NCBI GenBank assembly: GCA_018820855.1
Contig: JAHJNL010000068.1
Coordinates: 1-36,472 of the forward strand
DNA length: 36,472 bases
Direction: 5' to 3'
DNA from: Pseudomonadota bacterium
GTDB lineage: Bacteria; Desulfobacterota; Desulfobulbia; Desulfobulbales; Desulfocapsaceae
The position numbers and the translations under genes are program-made. The notes below the pieces were generated by a model. That model ran no database searches, was not told the DNA's origin, and saw nothing but the letters and a program-made list of their open reading frames with translations. Of the stretch, positions 19,848 through 28,057 are shown in pieces. Each line of letters begins with the position of its first letter. Position 1 is the first letter of the stretch.

Positions 19848-22031
19848 TTATGGGGGAGTCAGGGCAAACCCTGCATGGTTGAATCGGTCAAGGGACCATA
19901 TCCTGCCATAGCCGTCCTGAGCCATGGTCCACACATGCAGTGCCTCGGAAAATGCCGCTCGCGTACAGGTGTCGAGAAGCTCCGTGGCAGCGAAGGACTC
20001 GCTGTACTGTCCCGATCCGGTGAGTGTATAGGAATGGCTCGGAGTCGGCGTGTCGTTTGTTGGAATCGGTGAAGCACCGACGCGACCTGATGCACTCGCA
20101 AGATAAACATTTGTCGTCACACCCTGCTTAACACTGAAGGAGAAGGTGGCAAAGTCATTCGGATGTCCGGCAGTGAAGCCAAGGGTCACACTTGCCGTGG
20201 GAGTTATTTCGTAAAAGCCGCAGGGCGTGGCCGTCAGACCGACACCGCTCAGCGGATCAATAGTTGCCTGGCAACAGTTGTTGTCCACTCGCAGAATCAT
20301 ACGAAAAGCTACCGTATGCAGGGCAGCATTTTTGATGCGATTGTAATCCGGAGCAGGGTCAGTGGTTACTGTGCTGGTCCCGAAAGGTGCCGCTATATCA
20401 GTCATCTCAAGATCAATATTGATGCCTGCGGCATCCCAGTCGACCAGATCGCCGGTTCCATCTTTGAACAGCTCCAGCTTGAGTTCATATTTTCCGGCAC
20501 CATCAAAGGCTTGTGCACATGTATCTGCACCTGTGCCAAGCTTGGCAGTTTCGAAATGTGCGCTTGCCAGGTCCTCGCGCTCATCCATCACTGTCCATTC
20601 CAATCCTCCTGTCGGTACATCGGCTGGTTTGATTTCAAAGAGATTTGATTCCGTACCTACCGGTTGCGGGCCGAGTATATAGGGGACATGGGTGATGTCA
20701 CTACCGGTTATTTTTGCATAGTGACGAACGACTGTGCGGGTCATAGGGATCCAGGGACCGGCTGTGGTCAGCGGGGTACCGTCTCCTTCGGTAAGTCGAC
20801 GATAGGACCAGCGGTAATAACGAACGCCTTTGCTGTGAAGCGTTGTCCGGCTGAACCAGACCCGGGGCTCAATTTTTCCTCCAAAGGGCTCGCCGTTGGT
20901 TGTCAGCCCTTCATTGGCAACGGTTGAACCATTTCCATGGATCTCCGACATGCTCACTTTTCGTCCGATTGAGATAATTTGTACCTTGCATCCGACAAGG
21001 TCGGGTTCGTCATCACAGCTGGGCACCCGCTGATCTGAAATCTCGAGGGTTACTTCGGTGCCGCATTTGTAATCCCAGTAGGTGTAGCAGGGGATCGGCG
21101 GATGATAAACCGTCTCAAATATACTGGCAATCTTGTATTCAACCCAGAAGTAGAGATCCGGTTTGTCGCCATTGCAGAGGTATTTGATGACTGTTTCAAA
21201 GCGACCCAGACCATCTGTTTCAACCACAGCGATTTCGTCACAACGATAGGTCCACCAGTAAGGCCACAGACAAAGGTACGGCCGAATCAGCTCCAGGTTG
21301 GCGACAAGTACATCACGGATGACCCTGGATGATGAGGACATCAGTTTTGTCTTTATTTCCATAGGTAGGGAAGGAAGAGCATAATCCAGAGCCTGCTTGT
21401 CGGGTGGCTCGGGCTGTGGTCCGAGCGCGGCTATATTCATGGAAGTTGACATCGGTCCGATAAGATCAATGGGCGAGGGATCAGGCTCAGGACGCGGAGG
21501 GCGTCGCAGCTCCGGTATCTCTATAACCTTGATCAATTCATCCCGCAGGCGGAACACTTCCAGCTCCGGCAGCTCAAATATCCAGCGCCAGAGTTTATCC
21601 ACCTCGCAGATGTGTACCCTTGCACCACATACCGGATGGGCGCTGTCGGTTTTGATTACGCGACCTCGCACCCAGCATGAACACAGCAACCATTTTACGA
21701 TGACTATATCAGGTATTCGAATTGTCTCGATCAGACTGTCACCCTTTCGCAGGACGGGTGAGTAGGCACCAAGACGGGTCATGGACTTGAGGGTAGGGCG
21801 ATGCACATCAGGGTCTTTATCTGAGACTGGTGCAATGAAGATTCGGTTTCTGGATAAGGCCTGCAGTGAGCTAGACAGGGTGACCTTACCGGCTTTGACC
21901 GGGGCCTGCTCCAACAGATTGCCGGTCGAATCGAAAACGAATGCCGACAGTTGTCCCTTAAAATCAGGCTGTTCAAGGTCTATTTTGAGAATAGTGCCCT
22001 TTGTTTCCGCATCTTTTTTCTGGTTAGCCAT
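19848..22031 (-). CDS. Unrecognised 727-residue Cys-rich protein with a carboxypeptidase-regulatory-like segment
   Basis: I do not recognise a named family. The frame opens earlier, but ATG 22031 follows AGGAGG at 8 nt and begins MANQKKDAETKG. No signal peptide or membrane segment is seen. Residues about 115-145 (VRGRVIKTDSAHPVCGARVHICEVD) and about 275-310 (VVETDGLGRFETVIKYLCNG, LYFWVEYKI) look like the two halves of a transthyretin-like or carboxypeptidase-regulatory beta fold. They are separated by a Pro/Arg-rich linker with PRPEPDP and GPQPEPPD. There are many Cys, often paired (CSC, CGARVHIC, CYTYWDYKC, NCC). The C-terminal half is Thr/Gly-rich and beta-like. It is preceded by a large palindromic leader. 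Such architecture could suit a secreted-particle or assembly component, but this is speculation. Confidence 0.75.
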   Translation of the reverse strand: MANQKKDAETKGTILKIDLEQPDFKGQLSAFVFDSTGNLLEQAPVKAGKVTLSSSLQALSRNRIFIAPVSDKDPDVHRPTLKSMTRLGAYSPVLRKGDSLIETIRIPDIVIVKWLLCSCWVRGRVIKTDSAHPVCGARVHICEVDKLWRWIFELPELEVFRLRDELIKVIEIPELRRPPRPEPDPSPIDLIGPMSTSMNIAALGPQPEPPDKQALDYALPSLPMEIKTKLMSSSSRVIRDVLVANLELIRPYLCLWPYWWTYRCDEIAVVETDGLGRFETVIKYLCNGDKPDLYFWVEYKIASIFETVYHPPIPCYTYWDYKCGTEVTLEISDQRVPSCDDEPDLVGCKVQIISIGRKVSMSEIHGNGSTVANEGLTTNGEPFGGKIEPRVWFSRTTLHSKGVRYYRWSYRRLTEGDGTPLTTAGPWIPMTRTVVRHYAKITGSDITHVPYILGPQPVGTESNLFEIKPADVPTGGLEWTVMDEREDLASAHFETAKLGTGADTCAQAFDGAGKYELKLELFKDGTGDLVDWDAAGINIDLEMTDIAAPFGTSTVTTDPAPDYNRIKNAALHTVAFRMILRVDNNCCQATIDPLSGVGLTATPCGFYEITPTASVTLGFTAGHPNDFATFSFSVKQGVTTNVYLASASGRVGASPIPTNDTPTPSHSYTLTGSGQYSESFAATELLDTCTRAAFSEALHVWTMAQDGYGRIWSLDRFNHAGFALTPP

Positions 22032-22659
22032 CTGATCTTCCTCCTGATTGCAGTTGGTGGGTTTTCGTTCGTGCAATCGTTGGTCTATGAAAAGAAGAAA
22101 TCACTTCTTGGACCAACGATCTAGGTCTGCACGAAAGAGCAAGTTGAGTAACTTATAACCGTTAAGTGAATCCTATTGCCTGTAAGGTAACAAAATGGTA
22201 ACAGTTTGAAAAAATATGTGTATCGGCAGGAAAGACAAAATAATGATAACGTTTTCAGGTGGATGGCTGAGGGTAAGTTGTCTGCGGTGTCCCAGGCAAG
22301 GGAGCGGAGGGGGGAGTATGCCCTCTTGTAACGGTTCTTTCAGGGCGTTATTCTGATGTGGAAAATGAGAAGAAGAACGGGCAGTAAGGTGATTTTTGCA
22401 GCAATCCTCACGAGGACAAACAGGCAATTCAAGTTTCTCGTTTTATTCAATTGAATTCAGTTCGGCCAGGTATGGTGACTCGTTCTGAGGATTGTCATGA
22501 GGCAAAATATGAATGGAACTATGCAAGGATAAAGTGATTTTTCTCTCTAGATTATATTGAAAGAAAGAGGATGTCGATGACCTTATTACGGCATGAGCTT
22601 GATCTTTATATTGTTAGGCGTGTGCGGCGAATTATAAGAAGACCGGGCCATGGGAGAGC
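22032..22659. other. Long intergenic region upstream of the 727-residue protein gene
   Basis: About 630 bp separate this gene from the end of the GAF-PAS kinase gene. Apart from the ribosome site near 22040 and the palindrome at 22068-22135, it holds a direct repeat of GGTAACA around 22187-22203 and no credible gene. The length and structure suggest separate regulation. Confidence 0.5.
22068..22135 (-). promoter_or_regulatory. Nested inverted repeat in the leader of the 727-residue protein gene
   Basis: Three nested arms pair in order: TTCGTGCA (22068-22075) with TGCACGAA (22128-22135), ATCGTTGGTC (22076-22085) with GACCAACGAT (22111-22120), and AAGAAG (22092-22097) with CTTCTT (22104-22109). 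All are exact, with a 7-nt one-sided bulge at 22121-22127. It lies about 25 bp upstream of the ribosome site, so it could fold in the mRNA leader or act as a protein-binding site. Confidence 0.7.
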
Positions 22660-24807
22660 TTACTGAAAACAATTTCTCTCATCCAATAGAGTTCTCACTA
22701 TCCTTGCTAGATCTTTAATGTCTACCGGTTTAGTAAGATATCTTTTGATCCCTATCTCCATTGCTTTTTCCTCAGGAAGCGTAGTGCTGTAGCCGGTGCA
22801 AAGAATAATCGGGATATCAGGCCGAAGACGCAGCACCTCTTCAGCAAGTTTTGCCCCTGACAAAGCGGGCATTGTCTGATCGGTGATGAGCAGATCAAAA
22901 CTTTTTGGGTCAGCCTGTAATGCAGCAAGCGCCTCTTCACTGCTGGTTTTCATGGTGACAGTGTAACCGAGGCTGGAAAGCATCGCCTTATGCAGGGCAA
23001 CAATTGTCGATTCATCGTCAACGGTCAAAATCCTCTCAGTCCCGGTAGGTAGCGGTTTTACGTGTTCTGCTGTAACAGGCACCTTCATCTTTTCAGATAT
23101 CGCCTGAAAGTAGACACGAAAAGTTGTTCCTTTGCCAAGTTCACTTTCAACTGTGATTATTCCACCGTAGCCTTGGACGAGACCAAGAACCACGGAGAGG
23201 CCCAAGCCCGTACCTTTTCCTGTTTCTTTGGTGGTAAAGTAAGGCTCGAATATTCGTCGTTGTGTTTGTTGATCCATGCCGCAGCCGGTATCACTCACGG
23301 AAAGTTCAATAAACGGACCGGGTGAAACTCCCGGATGGCCCAATACATCATCACTATTGAGTTCTTTGCGTGCCAATGTGACTTTTAAGGTGCCTGTCTC
23401 CTCTTCCATGGCATGCAGAGCATTGGTGCAAAGATTGACAACGATTTGATGGAGTTTTGTTGAGTCAGCCAGAATAGAACAACTTTCACGATCAATATGT
23501 TCCTCTATTGCTATGGTAGTCGGCAAAGACGCTCTTATGAGATGAAGAGACTCCTTGACTATCAGATATGGATTAACAACCTTAGAGTCATAATCTCCTT
23601 TGCGGCTGAAGGTCAGGATCTGTTTGACAAGCCCCGTTGCCCTTTGTGATGCCTGTAATACATGTGCAAGAGTCTCAGTAATGCTGTCGTTATCTTCCGC
23701 TTCTGCTATCGCAAGTTCCGTATAACCGATGATTGCCGTGAGGATATTGTTGAAATCATGGGCAATACCACCGGCAAGGGTGCCGATGGCCTCCATCTTA
23801 TGTACCTGGAAAAGCTCTTCTTCAAGCAGTTTCTGCTCGGTGATGTCTATGGCAATCTGGATCTTGACCAGAGAGCCATCCACCCAGCGTAGAAGGCGAT
23901 CATGTCGCGAATACCAACAGTTGTTGAAGGTGTTGAAGTGTTCCCAGACATATGTTTTGCCGGCAAGAGCCGCATTATGGATAAGTTTTTCACTGGGGCA
24001 GAAAGGACACGGGCCGTTCAGCCCTTTTTGCAGAACCTGCCAGCACGTTGAGCCGGTTACATCACCATACAGTTCCTGACTGAACTTGTTCATATATAAA
24101 ATTTTATAGCTCTCAACATCGATAACATAGACACTGCTCTCAGTGCTATCAAGGATTGTCATCATTCTGTTGTGGGCATCCTCAAGGCTGGCCAGGGTGT
24201 CCTTCAGATCATTCTCCCGCTCTGCCAGCTTCCTGTTTGCGTTCTTCAGTGACAGGTGGGAGAGGCAATTTGTAAGAGCCCCAGAGATTAAGCCAGTGAT
24301 AATTTCCAGTATTGTCAGATCCGCATCTGCATGAAAATCATGAGGGGGGTGTGTGGCTACGATGATCCCTGATCTTTTTTCCCCAGGCTCCAGCGCCCCG
24401 ATTATTGGGACAGCGAGTAACAAATTTTCTGCATCCTCCCCGGCCGGGGCAGTACTCTCCTGTTGATAGCGGATCGTAATGTCAAGATATTGCGGGCTGT
24501 AAATTTTCCTCCAAAGGTGTTCAATTGGAAAAATCTGCGTGGTTGCGAACTCATCTCCACTCGAAATATCCCCCGTGCCGGCCATCAACTCAGGCTGGCC
24601 ATTGTCATTTTCCAAAAATATGGCCACTGTTCTGTATCCCAGGATTGAAGATATTAATCTTACTGCCGTGTTGCAGACATCACTGAGGTTGGACAGGGGA
24701 ATACGGGCAAAGGTATTGTTATAGTAGTTGAGCATCTGGACCAACTGATCAATGCGGTCCTTGCGTGACGATGATTTGGATATGCTCTTTTGCATCTTGT
24801 CAGTCAT
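22660..24807 (-). CDS. GAF-PAS hybrid sensor histidine kinase
   Basis: This is a soluble hybrid kinase of 715 residues from ATG 24807. That ATG overlaps the stop of the upstream redox gene (ATGACTGA), so the longer in-frame start is rejected. A GAF domain covers about 40-190. A short coiled coil covers about 190-215. A PAS domain covers about 215-325 and includes GPCPFCP with Cys267 and Cys270. HisKA has His350 in GGIAHDFNN. The HATPase has NLCTN and GTGLGL, and the receiver has Asp643 in LLITDQTMP and Lys693. The C-terminal half is clearly paralogous to the kinase at 12705-14957. Coupling to a thiol/selenol redox protein and the CxxC in its PAS suggest redox sensing, which is inferred. Confidence 0.9.
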   Translation of the reverse strand: MTDKMQKSISKSSSRKDRIDQLVQMLNYYNNTFARIPLSNLSDVCNTAVRLISSILGYRTVAIFLENDNGQPELMAGTGDISSGDEFATTQIFPIEHLWRKIYSPQYLDITIRYQQESTAPAGEDAENLLLAVPIIGALEPGEKRSGIIVATHPPHDFHADADLTILEIITGLISGALTNCLSHLSLKNANRKLAERENDLKDTLASLEDAHNRMMTILDSTESSVYVIDVESYKILYMNKFSQELYGDVTGSTCWQVLQKGLNGPCPFCPSEKLIHNAALAGKTYVWEHFNTFNNCWYSRHDRLLRWVDGSLVKIQIAIDITEQKLLEEELFQVHKMEAIGTLAGGIAHDFNNILTAIIGYTELAIAEAEDNDSITETLAHVLQASQRATGLVKQILTFSRKGDYDSKVVNPYLIVKESLHLIRASLPTTIAIEEHIDRESCSILADSTKLHQIVVNLCTNALHAMEEETGTLKVTLARKELNSDDVLGHPGVSPGPFIELSVSDTGCGMDQQTQRRIFEPYFTTKETGKGTGLGLSVVLGLVQGYGGIITVESELGKGTTFRVYFQAISEKMKVPVTAEHVKPLPTGTERILTVDDESTIVALHKAMLSSLGYTVTMKTSSEEALAALQADPKSFDLLITDQTMPALSGAKLAEEVLRLRPDIPIILCTGYSTTLPEEKAMEIGIKRYLTKPVDIKDLARIVRTLLDERNCFQ

Positions 24808-25402
24808 GAGTTGCCAGAGATTGTAAAAGTTTTTTGGCATCGTGTCTGTTTTGCTGGACACCATAAACAGTGACATTAGGGGCAGCGATAAGACATGGGA
24901 CTCCGGTGGCATGGAATGATGCTTTTAATTGTGCACCTTCATCACTCTCAACCGAAACAATGCGCAGGTCTACACCGACTTCTTCGGCAATCTCTCCCCA
25001 GAAACTGGAGGCAGTCAGTGAAAACGGGCACCAATCGCCGCTCAACAGGGTCGGATAATGGATGTCATCACTCACAGGTGACTCGGCGAACTGCTGCGGC
25101 TTGCCATCTAAAAGGGCTATGATTTCAGTAGCGAGGGGGTGGGGGCGGACTCCATCCGCAGTAAGGTAGGACCTTCAGTAAAAACCCGGGTGGGAAAAAG
25201 GCTGCTTTTGATATTCCTCACCGTCAACCAGAATGGTCGGTGAGCCGAAAAGACCCATTTCTTCAGCTTTTTCAAGTGACGGCACTATAATTGTCTCAAC
25301 TTCTGCATCAAGCTTTTCTTCCCGAATCAGAGCAGTTATATCCCGGACCAAATCAATTGCAGTCTGACAGCCCTTAAAGGTAAGTATCTCTATTTTTTTC
25401 AT
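24800..25402 (-). CDS. Putative selenoprotein: glutaredoxin-like plus thioredoxin-like fusion with in-frame TGA
   Basis: A continuous 201-codon frame runs from ATG 25402, behind AGGAGGAGG, to a TGA at 24800-24802. It is broken only by the TGA at 25175-25177 (codon 76). The N-terminal part is a thioredoxin-fold domain: EILTFKGC with Cys12, and GSPTILVDGEEY near 52-64. The TGA would read FY-U-RSYLTADG. In the related small proteins I recall, a Cys occupies this spot in C-R-x-Y. Residues about 77-105 continue that domain. A second thioredoxin-like domain follows, with GDWCPFS (Cys125, Ser128, CxxS form) and cis-Pro-like TGVPC. A SECIS-like hairpin follows the TGA. The stop overlaps the kinase start. 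A nonsense mutation or sequencing error is the alternative. Confidence 0.78.
25145..25159 (-). promoter_or_regulatory. Candidate bacterial SECIS hairpin
   Basis: Downstream of the in-frame TGA, GCGGA (25159-25155) pairs with TCCGC (25149-25145) around the loop TGGAG. The loop G at its second position is 22 nt after the TGA, inside the usual 16-37 nt window for bacterial SECIS elements. A smaller hairpin, AAGGT/ACCTT, lies between them. It is short, so the fit is suggestive rather than proof. Confidence 0.6.
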
Positions 25403-25654
25403 TGTCCTCCTCCTTTATTCTATAACATAACTTAATACCATGCTTAGGTTCTTGGAACCATGGTTGTTTAAGAGGACCTTTAAATAGAGCGTATCATATC
25501 TGTGTCGGCAATTTCAAAAAGATTCTCTGACTACGGAAATGATATGATGCTGTCGCCACCTTGCAATATCCGAGTTTATTAGGCTTTTTCAAGGCAGTAT
25601 ACCTGTTTCTTATGTATTTTTGAGCATGAGCAGCTCAAATCAAGTGATAACCTG

Positions 25655-28057
25655 TCATGTCGGGAAGAATTGCCGGGTTGTGGAGAGAGCGGCCACTCCG
25701 TAGGCTGCGCAGGCCATGAGCATGACAGCTGAAAAACCGAACTCTACGGCAATAATGGTGGCCAGCCCGGTGCTCACTACCGAGATGCAGCCGTTAATGC
25801 CCCAGGCCCAGGCGGCCTGACTTTTGCTGTGATTGGCCAGATGCTCCAGTCCGAGCGGGAAGGGTATGCCCATGGCCGTGGCCGGCGGAGCAATAAGCAG
25901 GAAGAAAAAGAGTGTCTTCCATAGTGGCGGCAGGGTGATGGCCATTTGTAACAGTGGCGGCAGGATGAAGAAGTAGAGAAGGAGGAGAAGGGCCACCAGA
26001 GCGGCAGCCAGACCATGGTTTGACCGGTGTGGCCGCAGGCGGCCTGAAAAAAGGCTGCCCAGGCCGGAAAAAACCAGCAGGCCGCTGATTCCCGCAGCAG
26101 CCGCAAAAATGGGGTGACCGAAGAAGAGAACCAATTCGTGGATCAGCATGATCTCGAAAAACATGTAGCCAAGTCCCAGGCCGCTGAAAAAAGGAATGGT
26201 CCACCTCTTCAGCCCCGTGCGACCGGGCAGGCCAAGGCGCAGGAGGGGAAGGAGGATGAGCAGGACTGCTGCCAGGGTTATCTGGGTGAAACTGATCAGG
26301 ACGATGAGATAGCCCAGTTCAAGAAAAGGCAGGGTCCGTTCACCGAACAGTTGCATGAGATGCGGGATGGAGTGCCAGTGCAGAAATTGGGAAAAAAAAG
26401 GGTGGTTGTCGCTGACCGGATGGAGGTTGAAGGCATAGTTTTCATAGAGTTTCTGGCGGTGGGATGGTGAAAAGAGGCTGTCGAGATTGTTGAAAAAGCG
26501 AGGATCTGCCGGCACGTGGTAGCGGATTCGTTCCGGCCCCTGCAGTTCAGGGAGCAGGGCTGGGTCAAACTGCAGTCGCTTGCAAAAGCTGCGGACCTGT
26601 TCAATGTCGCTGTTGTTGAGCGGTGAGCGCTTCAGAATAAAGGTTATCATATTCCAGTTACGCACTGCCGCCACATGTCGCCGCGCGTCCACATCTGCTT
26701 CTTCCAGGGTTTCTGCAATGGTGGCTGCCAGCCGCAGAGAGTTCCGGGTTGGAGAATCCAGCCAGGCTGAAACCCGCAACATACCGTCAGGGGATAAATG
26801 ATTCCACAGCTCGAGGAAGGCCTCTTTGGTCAGGAGATACTGCTCCTGCAGGGCAAAGAGGCCCGAAGCACCGCCAAAGCTGCCCACAGTGGGCAGGGTA
26901 ATCAGGTCATAGCGTTCCCGGTGCAGGGCCAGCCAGGTACGAGGGGTCAGAGAGGAACGCTGTACCAGGGGATGATGCAGAAGATTTTCATCGGTTGTGC
27001 CATAGAGGCCAGCCATGATCGTTGTCGCCTTTTGATGCGGTTCCACGGCCATGACGCCTTCTGTCTCGTTTTTCAGGGCCTGGATGATGTCCGTACCTGT
27101 TCCGGCCTGGAGGACTAGAACCCGATCTCGCTTACCCATGGCATAGGGCAGAGCGGATATGGTTGCATGCAGGAAGGATGCTTCTCCGCTGTCCACTGCT
27201 CCGAACCAGTCGCCATTGTTGAAAACCGCAGCACTGACTGTCGGTACCTCTTCCACATAGGTCAGGCTGAGTCCGGGAGCGTAACGCAGGGCTGGTGCCG
27301 TTACCAGCTCAATCAGACCATAGGGGCTAGGCTGACTGGCTGTAATGTTACTGCCGGGCAGATCCATGGTGCGGCTGATATCTTTGTACTGTGAGGGTTG
27401 CAGGTGCGGCGGATGGGAGAGAACGGCTGCGATGAGCGTCAGGGTGAGAGCTGCCAAGGCAAGGAGGGATCTGCGCCTGGGCCTTGAGATGACAAGGATG
27501 CCGGCCGCCCATGGCAGCAGGGCGGTCAGGGCAGGGAGCTGTTGCGGCAGGAGAACATACATAAGAGCAACCGCGCTGAGTCCGCCAATTCCGGAACCCA
27601 CCAGATTGGCGCAGTAGAGACTGTTGATCCTGCTGCTGAGGCCGATAAAGACCAGGCCCAGAGGGAGAGCTCCGAGGAAGAAAACCAGCAGGTAGATGCC
27701 CTGGCTCAGCAGCAGCAATGCCGCCTGACCCGGTTCGATAAAGAGCAGGCAGATATCAAAACGACTGGTCATTTCCTGGGAGAGGGGGAGGGCCATGGCC
27801 ATGGAGATGGCGCAGGCAAACATCAAAACAGGCAGAAGCCACTCCACCTGGCGTAGCAGGCTGGTGCGGCAGATGGCAATAAGGGTACCGGCTGCGCCAA
27901 AACCGAGCAGGGCAACCGAGATGATCAGGTAGGCAAAATGATGCCACTGCACAATGGCCAAAAGCTGCATCTGCTCCAGCTGGAAAGCGATGAGGGCGGC
28001 GGAGAGGAGGATAAGGGCCAGATGGAGTTGCAGGGGTGGGGCGGGATCCCTCTTCAC
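25655..28057 (-). CDS. Large membrane protein with degenerate spermidine-synthase-like domain
   Basis: This 800-residue protein has about 7 N-terminal hydrophobic segments (residues 10-205), a soluble central domain (about 225-530) and about 7 further membrane segments (570-795). The central domain resembles the Rossmann methyltransferase-like fold of polyamine synthases, with VLVLQAGTGTDIIQAL and VMAVEPH. The usual catalytic Asp motif after the DLI strand reads TLPTVGSFGG instead, so polyamine synthesis is unlikely. QYLLTKEAF and SPDGMLRVSAW fit the family of membrane-fused spermidine-synthase-like proteins of unknown role. It starts by 4-bp overlap with the pcm stop, so the two are translated together. 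Confidence 0.8.
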   Translation of the reverse strand: MKRDPAPPLQLHLALILLSAALIAFQLEQMQLLAIVQWHHFAYLIISVALLGFGAAGTLIAICRTSLLRQVEWLLPVLMFACAISMAMALPLSQEMTSRFDICLLFIEPGQAALLLLSQGIYLLVFFLGALPLGLVFIGLSSRINSLYCANLVGSGIGGLSAVALMYVLLPQQLPALTALLPWAAGILVISRPRRRSLLALAALTLTLIAAVLSHPPHLQPSQYKDISRTMDLPGSNITASQPSPYGLIELVTAPALRYAPGLSLTYVEEVPTVSAAVFNNGDWFGAVDSGEASFLHATISALPYAMGKRDRVLVLQAGTGTDIIQALKNETEGVMAVEPHQKATTIMAGLYGTTDENLLHHPLVQRSSLTPRTWLALHRERYDLITLPTVGSFGGASGLFALQEQYLLTKEAFLELWNHLSPDGMLRVSAWLDSPTRNSLRLAATIAETLEEADVDARRHVAAVRNWNMITFILKRSPLNNSDIEQVRSFCKRLQFDPALLPELQGPERIRYHVPADPRFFNNLDSLFSPSHRQKLYENYAFNLHPVSDNHPFFSQFLHWHSIPHLMQLFGERTLPFLELGYLIVLISFTQITLAAVLLILLPLLRLGLPGRTGLKRWTIPFFSGLGLGYMFFEIMLIHELVLFFGHPIFAAAAGISGLLVFSGLGSLFSGRLRPHRSNHGLAAALVALLLLLYFFILPPLLQMAITLPPLWKTLFFFLLIAPPATAMGIPFPLGLEHLANHSKSQAAWAWGINGCISVVSTGLATIIAVEFGFSAVMLMACAAYGVAALSTTRQFFPT

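Follow-up and report, generated by a model that had tools for sequence, protein, structure and literature searches.

The closest described relative of the protein analyzed here is a family of selenocysteine (Sec) proteins without a named function. Deep-Sep described "hypothetical protein DF" in Desulfosediminicola flagellatus (PMC12013277), and the group is now NCBIfam NF049942, "DF family (seleno)protein"; Table 1 of PMC13188914 gives it a single Sec and names no function. We analyzed the window, a 36,472-nt stretch of contig JAHJNL010000068.1, in which a predicted 200-residue selenoprotein gene on the minus strand overlaps the gene of a hybrid sensor histidine kinase. The N-terminal half of the protein (residues 4-91) matches NF049942 at 61.8 bits (E 4.6e-17) and has both DF traits, a Cys or Sec at the C/U-R position and a Cys near the N terminus; since this half is related to the DF family, the Sec site at codon 76 is already known. 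An earlier, sequence-only reading of this DNA had left open whether the family was a reported selenoprotein; for the N-terminal domain it was, by deep-Sep. The blind spots of that reading were a second Sec site at codon 125, a C-terminal thioredoxin-like domain, and the conserved pairing with the kinase.

The TGA at codon 76 and its coding context

The minus-strand frame from 25402 to 24800 comprises 200 codons, with a single internal TGA at codon 76 and a terminal TGA at 24802-24800. The sequence-only reading had described two minus-strand open reading frames (ORFs) in one frame, split by one TGA, and this is confirmed, there being no further stop before 24802-24800. Its proposal of one Sec-containing protein of 200 residues is supported by conservation of TGA76, by coding evolution, and by the sel genes of the host genome. 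From these sequence comparisons the window gene is almost certainly a selenoprotein gene; it passes nearly all computational tests for one, and its weak point is its own hairpin. The features of the gene are as follows:

24800..25402, minus strand: predicted selenoprotein gene, 200 residues; DF domain (about residues 1-103) and thioredoxin-like domain (about 115-200), limits approximate
25406..25413, minus strand: Shine-Dalgarno-like sequence GGAGGAGG, 5' of the ATG
25367..25369, minus strand: Cys12 of the DF domain, invariant in 5/5 proteins; likely redox partner of Sec76
25175..25177, minus strand: TGA codon 76, predicted to be read as Sec in F-Y-U-R-S-Y; TGA in 5/5 distinct genes
25145..25159, minus strand: hairpin resembling a selenocysteine insertion sequence (SECIS), GCGGAU-GGA-GUCCGC; 6-bp stem, GGA loop, loop 21 nt after TGA76
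25028..25030, minus strand: codon 125, TGC (Cys) in W-C-P-F-S; TGA in all four relatives
24893..24895, minus strand: Cys170 after Pro169 (putative cis-Pro position), invariant in 5/5 proteins; possible resolving residue

We searched for relatives in a set of 96 relatives, the species-contig collection, and genomes from the family (93) and the order (257). Once identical gene sequences had been merged (G018 with L026; L024 with L069 and G627; L025 with L068 and G625), four distinct close relatives were obtained, with identities to the window protein of 75% (G018), 73% (G006), 81% (L024), and 82% (L025); G018 and G006 are from the same genus as the window. All four keep TGA76. The five genes are related by descent and are not independent trials, and the ratio of nonsynonymous to synonymous differences (pN/pS) was pooled over their 10 pairs. 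It is 0.37 for codons 1-75, 0.47 for codons 77-124, and 0.23 for codons 126-197. For codons 77-97 the ratio is 0.31 in frame vs. 1.15 and 1.52 when the frame is shifted, and for codons 77-109, a stretch that extends to the window's GTG, it is 0.43 vs. 1.40 and 1.01; codons 110-124 alone, a short stretch, give 0.72. Because pN/pS beyond the TGA is low only in this frame, coding evolution runs through TGA76, and because the TGA also occupies the same codon in all four relatives, it is more than a chance occurrence.

The wider DF family agrees with this assignment. The DF domain has matches in 84 of 395 phylum genomes, above the NF049942 cut-off in 22, and we examined the best 30 loci (L027-L056), which comprise the window, one locus cut by a contig end (L048), and 28 informative loci whose residues were counted by eye on printed segments. 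The sequence-only reading had expected Cys in related proteins where the window has TGA76, and all 28 informative loci have one of two residues at the codon-76 position, Sec in 19 and Cys in nine. The Cys12 position holds Cys in 26 and Sec in two, L043 and L045 (G104 and G176). In each of these two stand-alone DF genes an in-frame TGA stands at both the Cys12 and the residue-76 position, a further two-Sec form of the family that supports a 12-76 redox pair. The DF gene of L043 is adjoined by a Thioredoxin_3 protein, besides a transporter of the SBF family.

The sel genes, which the sequence-only reading had proposed to look for, are present in the genome of the window: tRNA-Sec, the selC product, scores 73.4 bits, SelA 609.5, SelB 367.7, and SelD 366.6, all above the curated cut-off. 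SelB is likewise above its cut-off in the genomes of all four relatives.

To evaluate the hairpins, the published bacterial SECIS (bSECIS) model was re-coded as given in the Figure 2 legend of PMC13188914 (loop of 3-9 nt, G in the first two loop positions, spacing of 16-37, energy of -7.5 or lower) and applied to sites 76 and 125. At site 76 all four relatives pass, with the same hairpin as the window on a 7-bp stem, and at site 125 three of four pass; in every passing relative, at both sites, the loop lies exactly 21 nt after the UGA. The background pass rate is 223 of 5207 for control codons taken from window genes and 30 of 1447 for TGA triplets in the window. When the same amino acids are recoded at random, 1.0-1.8% of the recodings equal the folding strength of the relatives' site-76 hairpin, and 3.3% to 31.7%, depending on the relative, equal that of the site-125 hairpin. 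In the window itself the hairpin lies 16-30 nt 3' of TGA76, where it had been predicted, and free folding of the sub-window gives -7.8 kcal/mol. The selD gene of the same genome (L065, contig C91) has an in-frame TGA followed by a SECIS-like hairpin with a GGA loop, a spacing of 20, and -8.7 kcal/mol; with the same geometry as the hairpins of the selenoprotein gene, it is a positive control. A promoter scan upstream of the gene returned only 9/12 consensus matches, two on the gene strand (three on both strands, 0.9 expected), and was not used, and Rfam returned nothing at gathering, its two matches lying far below the gathering scores (E 1.1 and 7.7).

A second Sec/Cys site at codon 125

Each of the four relatives carries another in-frame TGA, codon 125, within the motif W-U-P-F-S. 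On this comparison the window gene is the one-Sec form of a predicted two-Sec protein. A change from Sec to Cys at this site has probably taken place in the window lineage, with the downstream stem decaying through synonymous changes: no fitting bSECIS hairpin follows codon 125 in the window, and two synonymous changes, at codons 132 and 136, fall in the stem downstream of that site.

The domain around this site is thioredoxin-like. The C-terminal half weakly matches the thioredoxin models TIGR00411 (27.7 bits, cut-off 92.75, E 2.1e-6) and PF00085 (15.5, gathering 23.5), which does not bear out the "Grx-like" label of the sequence-only reading. Its active-site motif is C/U-P-F-S, without the second Cys of CxxC or UxxC. 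Foldseek with the full-length AlphaFold model returned mostly thioredoxins, the best at E 0.006 and none at 0.001, a result that is suggestive only, and a sequence search of solved structures gave only weak thioredoxin matches (best E 0.03). Up to Cys/Sec exchange, the redox residues at positions 12, 76, 125, and 170 are invariant in the five proteins, with Cys at 12 and 170 throughout.

The two-domain gene has a narrow distribution. At E 1e-6, six of the 257 order genomes match; five of the matches are full length, and that in G033 is confined to residues 3-66. Because only five of the 20 genomes of the genus match at E 0.001, three of them full length, the gene is patchy. With the C-terminal half alone, one of 395 phylum genomes matches at E 1e-6, the window's own, in a first look that scored at most 13 candidates per genome; otherwise it was found only in the four relatives. 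A plasmid origin was considered and found no close match: three of 72,556 plasmid records match, in the DF half only, at 29-38% identity.

The overlapping kinase gene and the proposed role of the selenoprotein

The gene directly downstream encodes a protein in which HisKA, HATPase_c, and receiver domains are matched, as in hybrid sensor kinases; the label of the PAS-like region (residues ~190-335) is our own, no model having called it. Its features are as follows:

22660..24807, minus strand: hybrid sensor histidine kinase, 715 aa; GAF, PAS-like region, HisKA, HATPase_c, receiver; 8-nt overlap with the end of the selenoprotein gene
23998..24045, minus strand: kinase Cys255, Cys267, and Cys270 (C-W-x8-G-P-C-x-F-C), invariant in 5/5 kinases; candidate redox or cofactor site

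The selenoprotein stop overlaps the kinase start, an ATG at 24807, as ATGACTGA, which bears out the earlier claim that the stop is coupled to the next gene. The kinase follows the selenoprotein gene directly in 5/5 genomes, with 72-76% identity over ~700 residues, and stop and start overlap in all five, by 8 nt in four and by 1 nt in L025. When seven window genes were compared with the five relatives' loci, only the overlapping kinase matched at the level of an orthologue, another window kinase showing 21-25% identity and five genes no match. Further neighbors vary, with RecD2 in L025, an ion channel in G018, and Ppx/GppA in G018 and G006. Because the neighbors beyond the pair differ, the selenoprotein and kinase genes behave as a unit. 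The Ppx/GppA phosphatase gene stands beside the pair in both genomes (L063 and L064), but on the upstream side in one of them and on the downstream side in the second. Two long minus-strand ORFs of the window, 25655-28057 (800 aa) and 19848-22076 (742 aa), have no Pfam or NCBIfam match at E 0.001.

With kinase residues 1-335 as query, matches were found in 142 of the 257 order genomes. Among the matches listed, the first 100 residues are reached only in the five selenoprotein-bearing genomes, and in the remainder the shared region begins at about residue 117 or later. The C-W-x8-G-P-C-x-F-C motif sits in the region matched in the 142 genomes. Cys181 in the N-terminal part of the kinase and Cys460, 509, and 670 in its kinase and receiver parts are also invariant in 5/5.

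We propose that the protein is most likely a thiol/selenol redox protein that serves the partner kinase. UGA76 would be decoded as Sec by SelB and tRNA-Sec with the adjacent downstream hairpin, as conservation, the machinery, and the SECIS-like fold suggest. In the DF domain, the position and invariance of the two residues point to a possible Sec76-Cys12 selenenylsulfide, and residue 125 of the C-terminal domain, Sec in the relatives and Cys in the window, would be the nucleophile of U/C-x-x-S and may pair with Cys170. The selenoprotein could then pass electrons to the kinase or read a redox or electrophile state for it, probably making contact through Cys255, Cys267, and Cys270. That all of this holds together, a two-domain thioredoxin-like selenoprotein doing redox work for the kinase of the overlapping gene, kinase link included, appears to us somewhat better than an even bet. 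A more specific form, in which the two-Sec protein is the dedicated subunit through which a two-component system receives redox or metal(loid)-electrophile signals, its Sec chemistry gates the kinase through the Cys cluster, and the window is a natural Sec-to-Cys variant at one site, is rather unlikely.

It is quite possible, if short of an even chance, that the selenoprotein is instead a plain redox enzyme, active in metal or metalloid handling or in disulfide or peroxide reduction, and that the kinase merely shares its operon, senses another signal, and controls other genes. DF genes elsewhere are consistent with such an enzyme: they stand alone beside a MerR regulator (L027) or SBF-family transporters (L043, L045), lie beside heavy-metal-responsive regulators on two actinobacterial plasmids (two of the three plasmid matches were opened), and once a DF-like domain starts a protein annotated "alkylmercury lyase family protein" (L083, Streptomyces plasmid NZ_CP108626.1). 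Of 10 ORFs near DF genes at nine loci, eight have a Pfam match, in no case to a kinase domain. Against this reading, the two-domain form was found only with the partner kinase, in 5/5 cases, with other neighbors that differ.

Two other explanations concern the TGA itself. It would be a true stop if a 75-residue protein were followed by a separate 91-residue protein started at the GTG at 25075, and the ORF 25075-24800 does exist as the sequence-only reading claimed, its GTG being codon 110. This GTG is shared by L024 and L025; G006 has ATG at codons 108 and 110, and G018 has neither ATG nor GTG in codons 108-110, its sole start candidate in codons 77-134 being TTG at 120. TTG also occurs at codon 98 in G006, L024, and L025. 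Codons 77-97, however, lack ATG, GTG, and TTG in all five genes yet show coding-type evolution in the same frame, TGA125 would cut the second protein as well in the four relatives, and the nine DF homologues with Cys continue past the codon-76 position. On the evolution of codons 77-97 and the lack of a start codon common to the relatives we rejected separate ORFs, which are very improbable. The remaining alternative, a sequencing error or a decaying pseudogene, might be entertained for a draft genome of 106 contigs; it was rejected on the presence of the same TGA in five distinct genomes and on pN/pS values well under 1 in all three segments, and its probability is negligible.

Several results weigh against a two-domain selenoprotein serving the kinase. 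The site-76 hairpin of the window reaches -7.0 where the bSECIS limit is -7.5, all other criteria of the model agreeing, and 28.5% of recodings fold as strongly, so it is not unusual for its codons; at site 125, L025 fails the model through one stem mismatch, and synonymous sites under the hairpins show no significant excess of conservation (14/19 vs. 58/100 codons, p 0.15). The NF049942 score lies under the curated cut-off of 70, and the window protein is thus a divergent relative, not a formal member. Only five distinct two-domain genes are known, and that Sec125 is ancestral and Cys125 derived is a parsimony guess for a C-terminal domain without an outgroup, none carrying it having been found in searches of the 395 phylum genomes and the relatives. 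The AlphaFold models, built on four alignment rows, are too poor to give Cys/Sec distances, with a mean predicted local distance difference test score of 54 (full length) and 52 (C-terminal half). Finally, overlapping genes suggest co-expression, not physical interaction.

Comparison with known selenoproteins and sensor systems

The Sec site at codon 76 is that of a family already described, whereas no precedent was seen in the literature searched for the site at codon 125, the two-domain build, or the pairing with a kinase. Neither a two-Sec DF/thioredoxin fusion nor a selenoprotein paired with a histidine kinase was found in the open-licence literature searched. The two-Sec architecture was not found in the catalogs in Table 1 of PMC13188914 and Table 1 of PMC9312934, and the main text of the former, a 2026 review, contains none of the terms "histidine kinase," "two-component," and "sensor kinase." Coupling to a sensor kinase gives the DF family a tractable context, and site 125 offers a natural experiment: four lineages have Sec there and one has Cys, beside a Sec site kept by all five. 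If the kinase link is true, selenoprotein chemistry would be tied to bacterial two-component signaling.

In functional terms only, the proposed arrangement resembles HbpS-SenS-SenR (PMC4991794), where a separate redox-active protein feeds a sensor kinase. HbpS differs in being secreted. It is not known to be thioredoxin-like or a selenoprotein. More than one Sec per fused chain is also found, by name, in the two-Sec fusions HUGP/GUXX-star (NF041212) and methyltransferase/UXPK-star (NF047649) of PMC13188914 Table 1; judged by those names their domains are different, and neither was among the hits of an NCBIfam scan of the window protein (E up to 1). A Sec-containing thioredoxin (UxxC, PF00085) is comparable in the weak C-terminal thioredoxin match and in the Sec at the first active-site position of the relatives, whereas the U-P-F-S motif without a second Cys and the scores under the Pfam and NCBIfam cut-offs set the window group apart. 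With DF family NF049942 the protein shares the N-terminal domain, the Sec or Cys at the C/U-R position, and Cys12. Beyond these, the window group has a further thioredoxin-like domain with its own Sec/Cys site, and its gene is coupled to that of a kinase.

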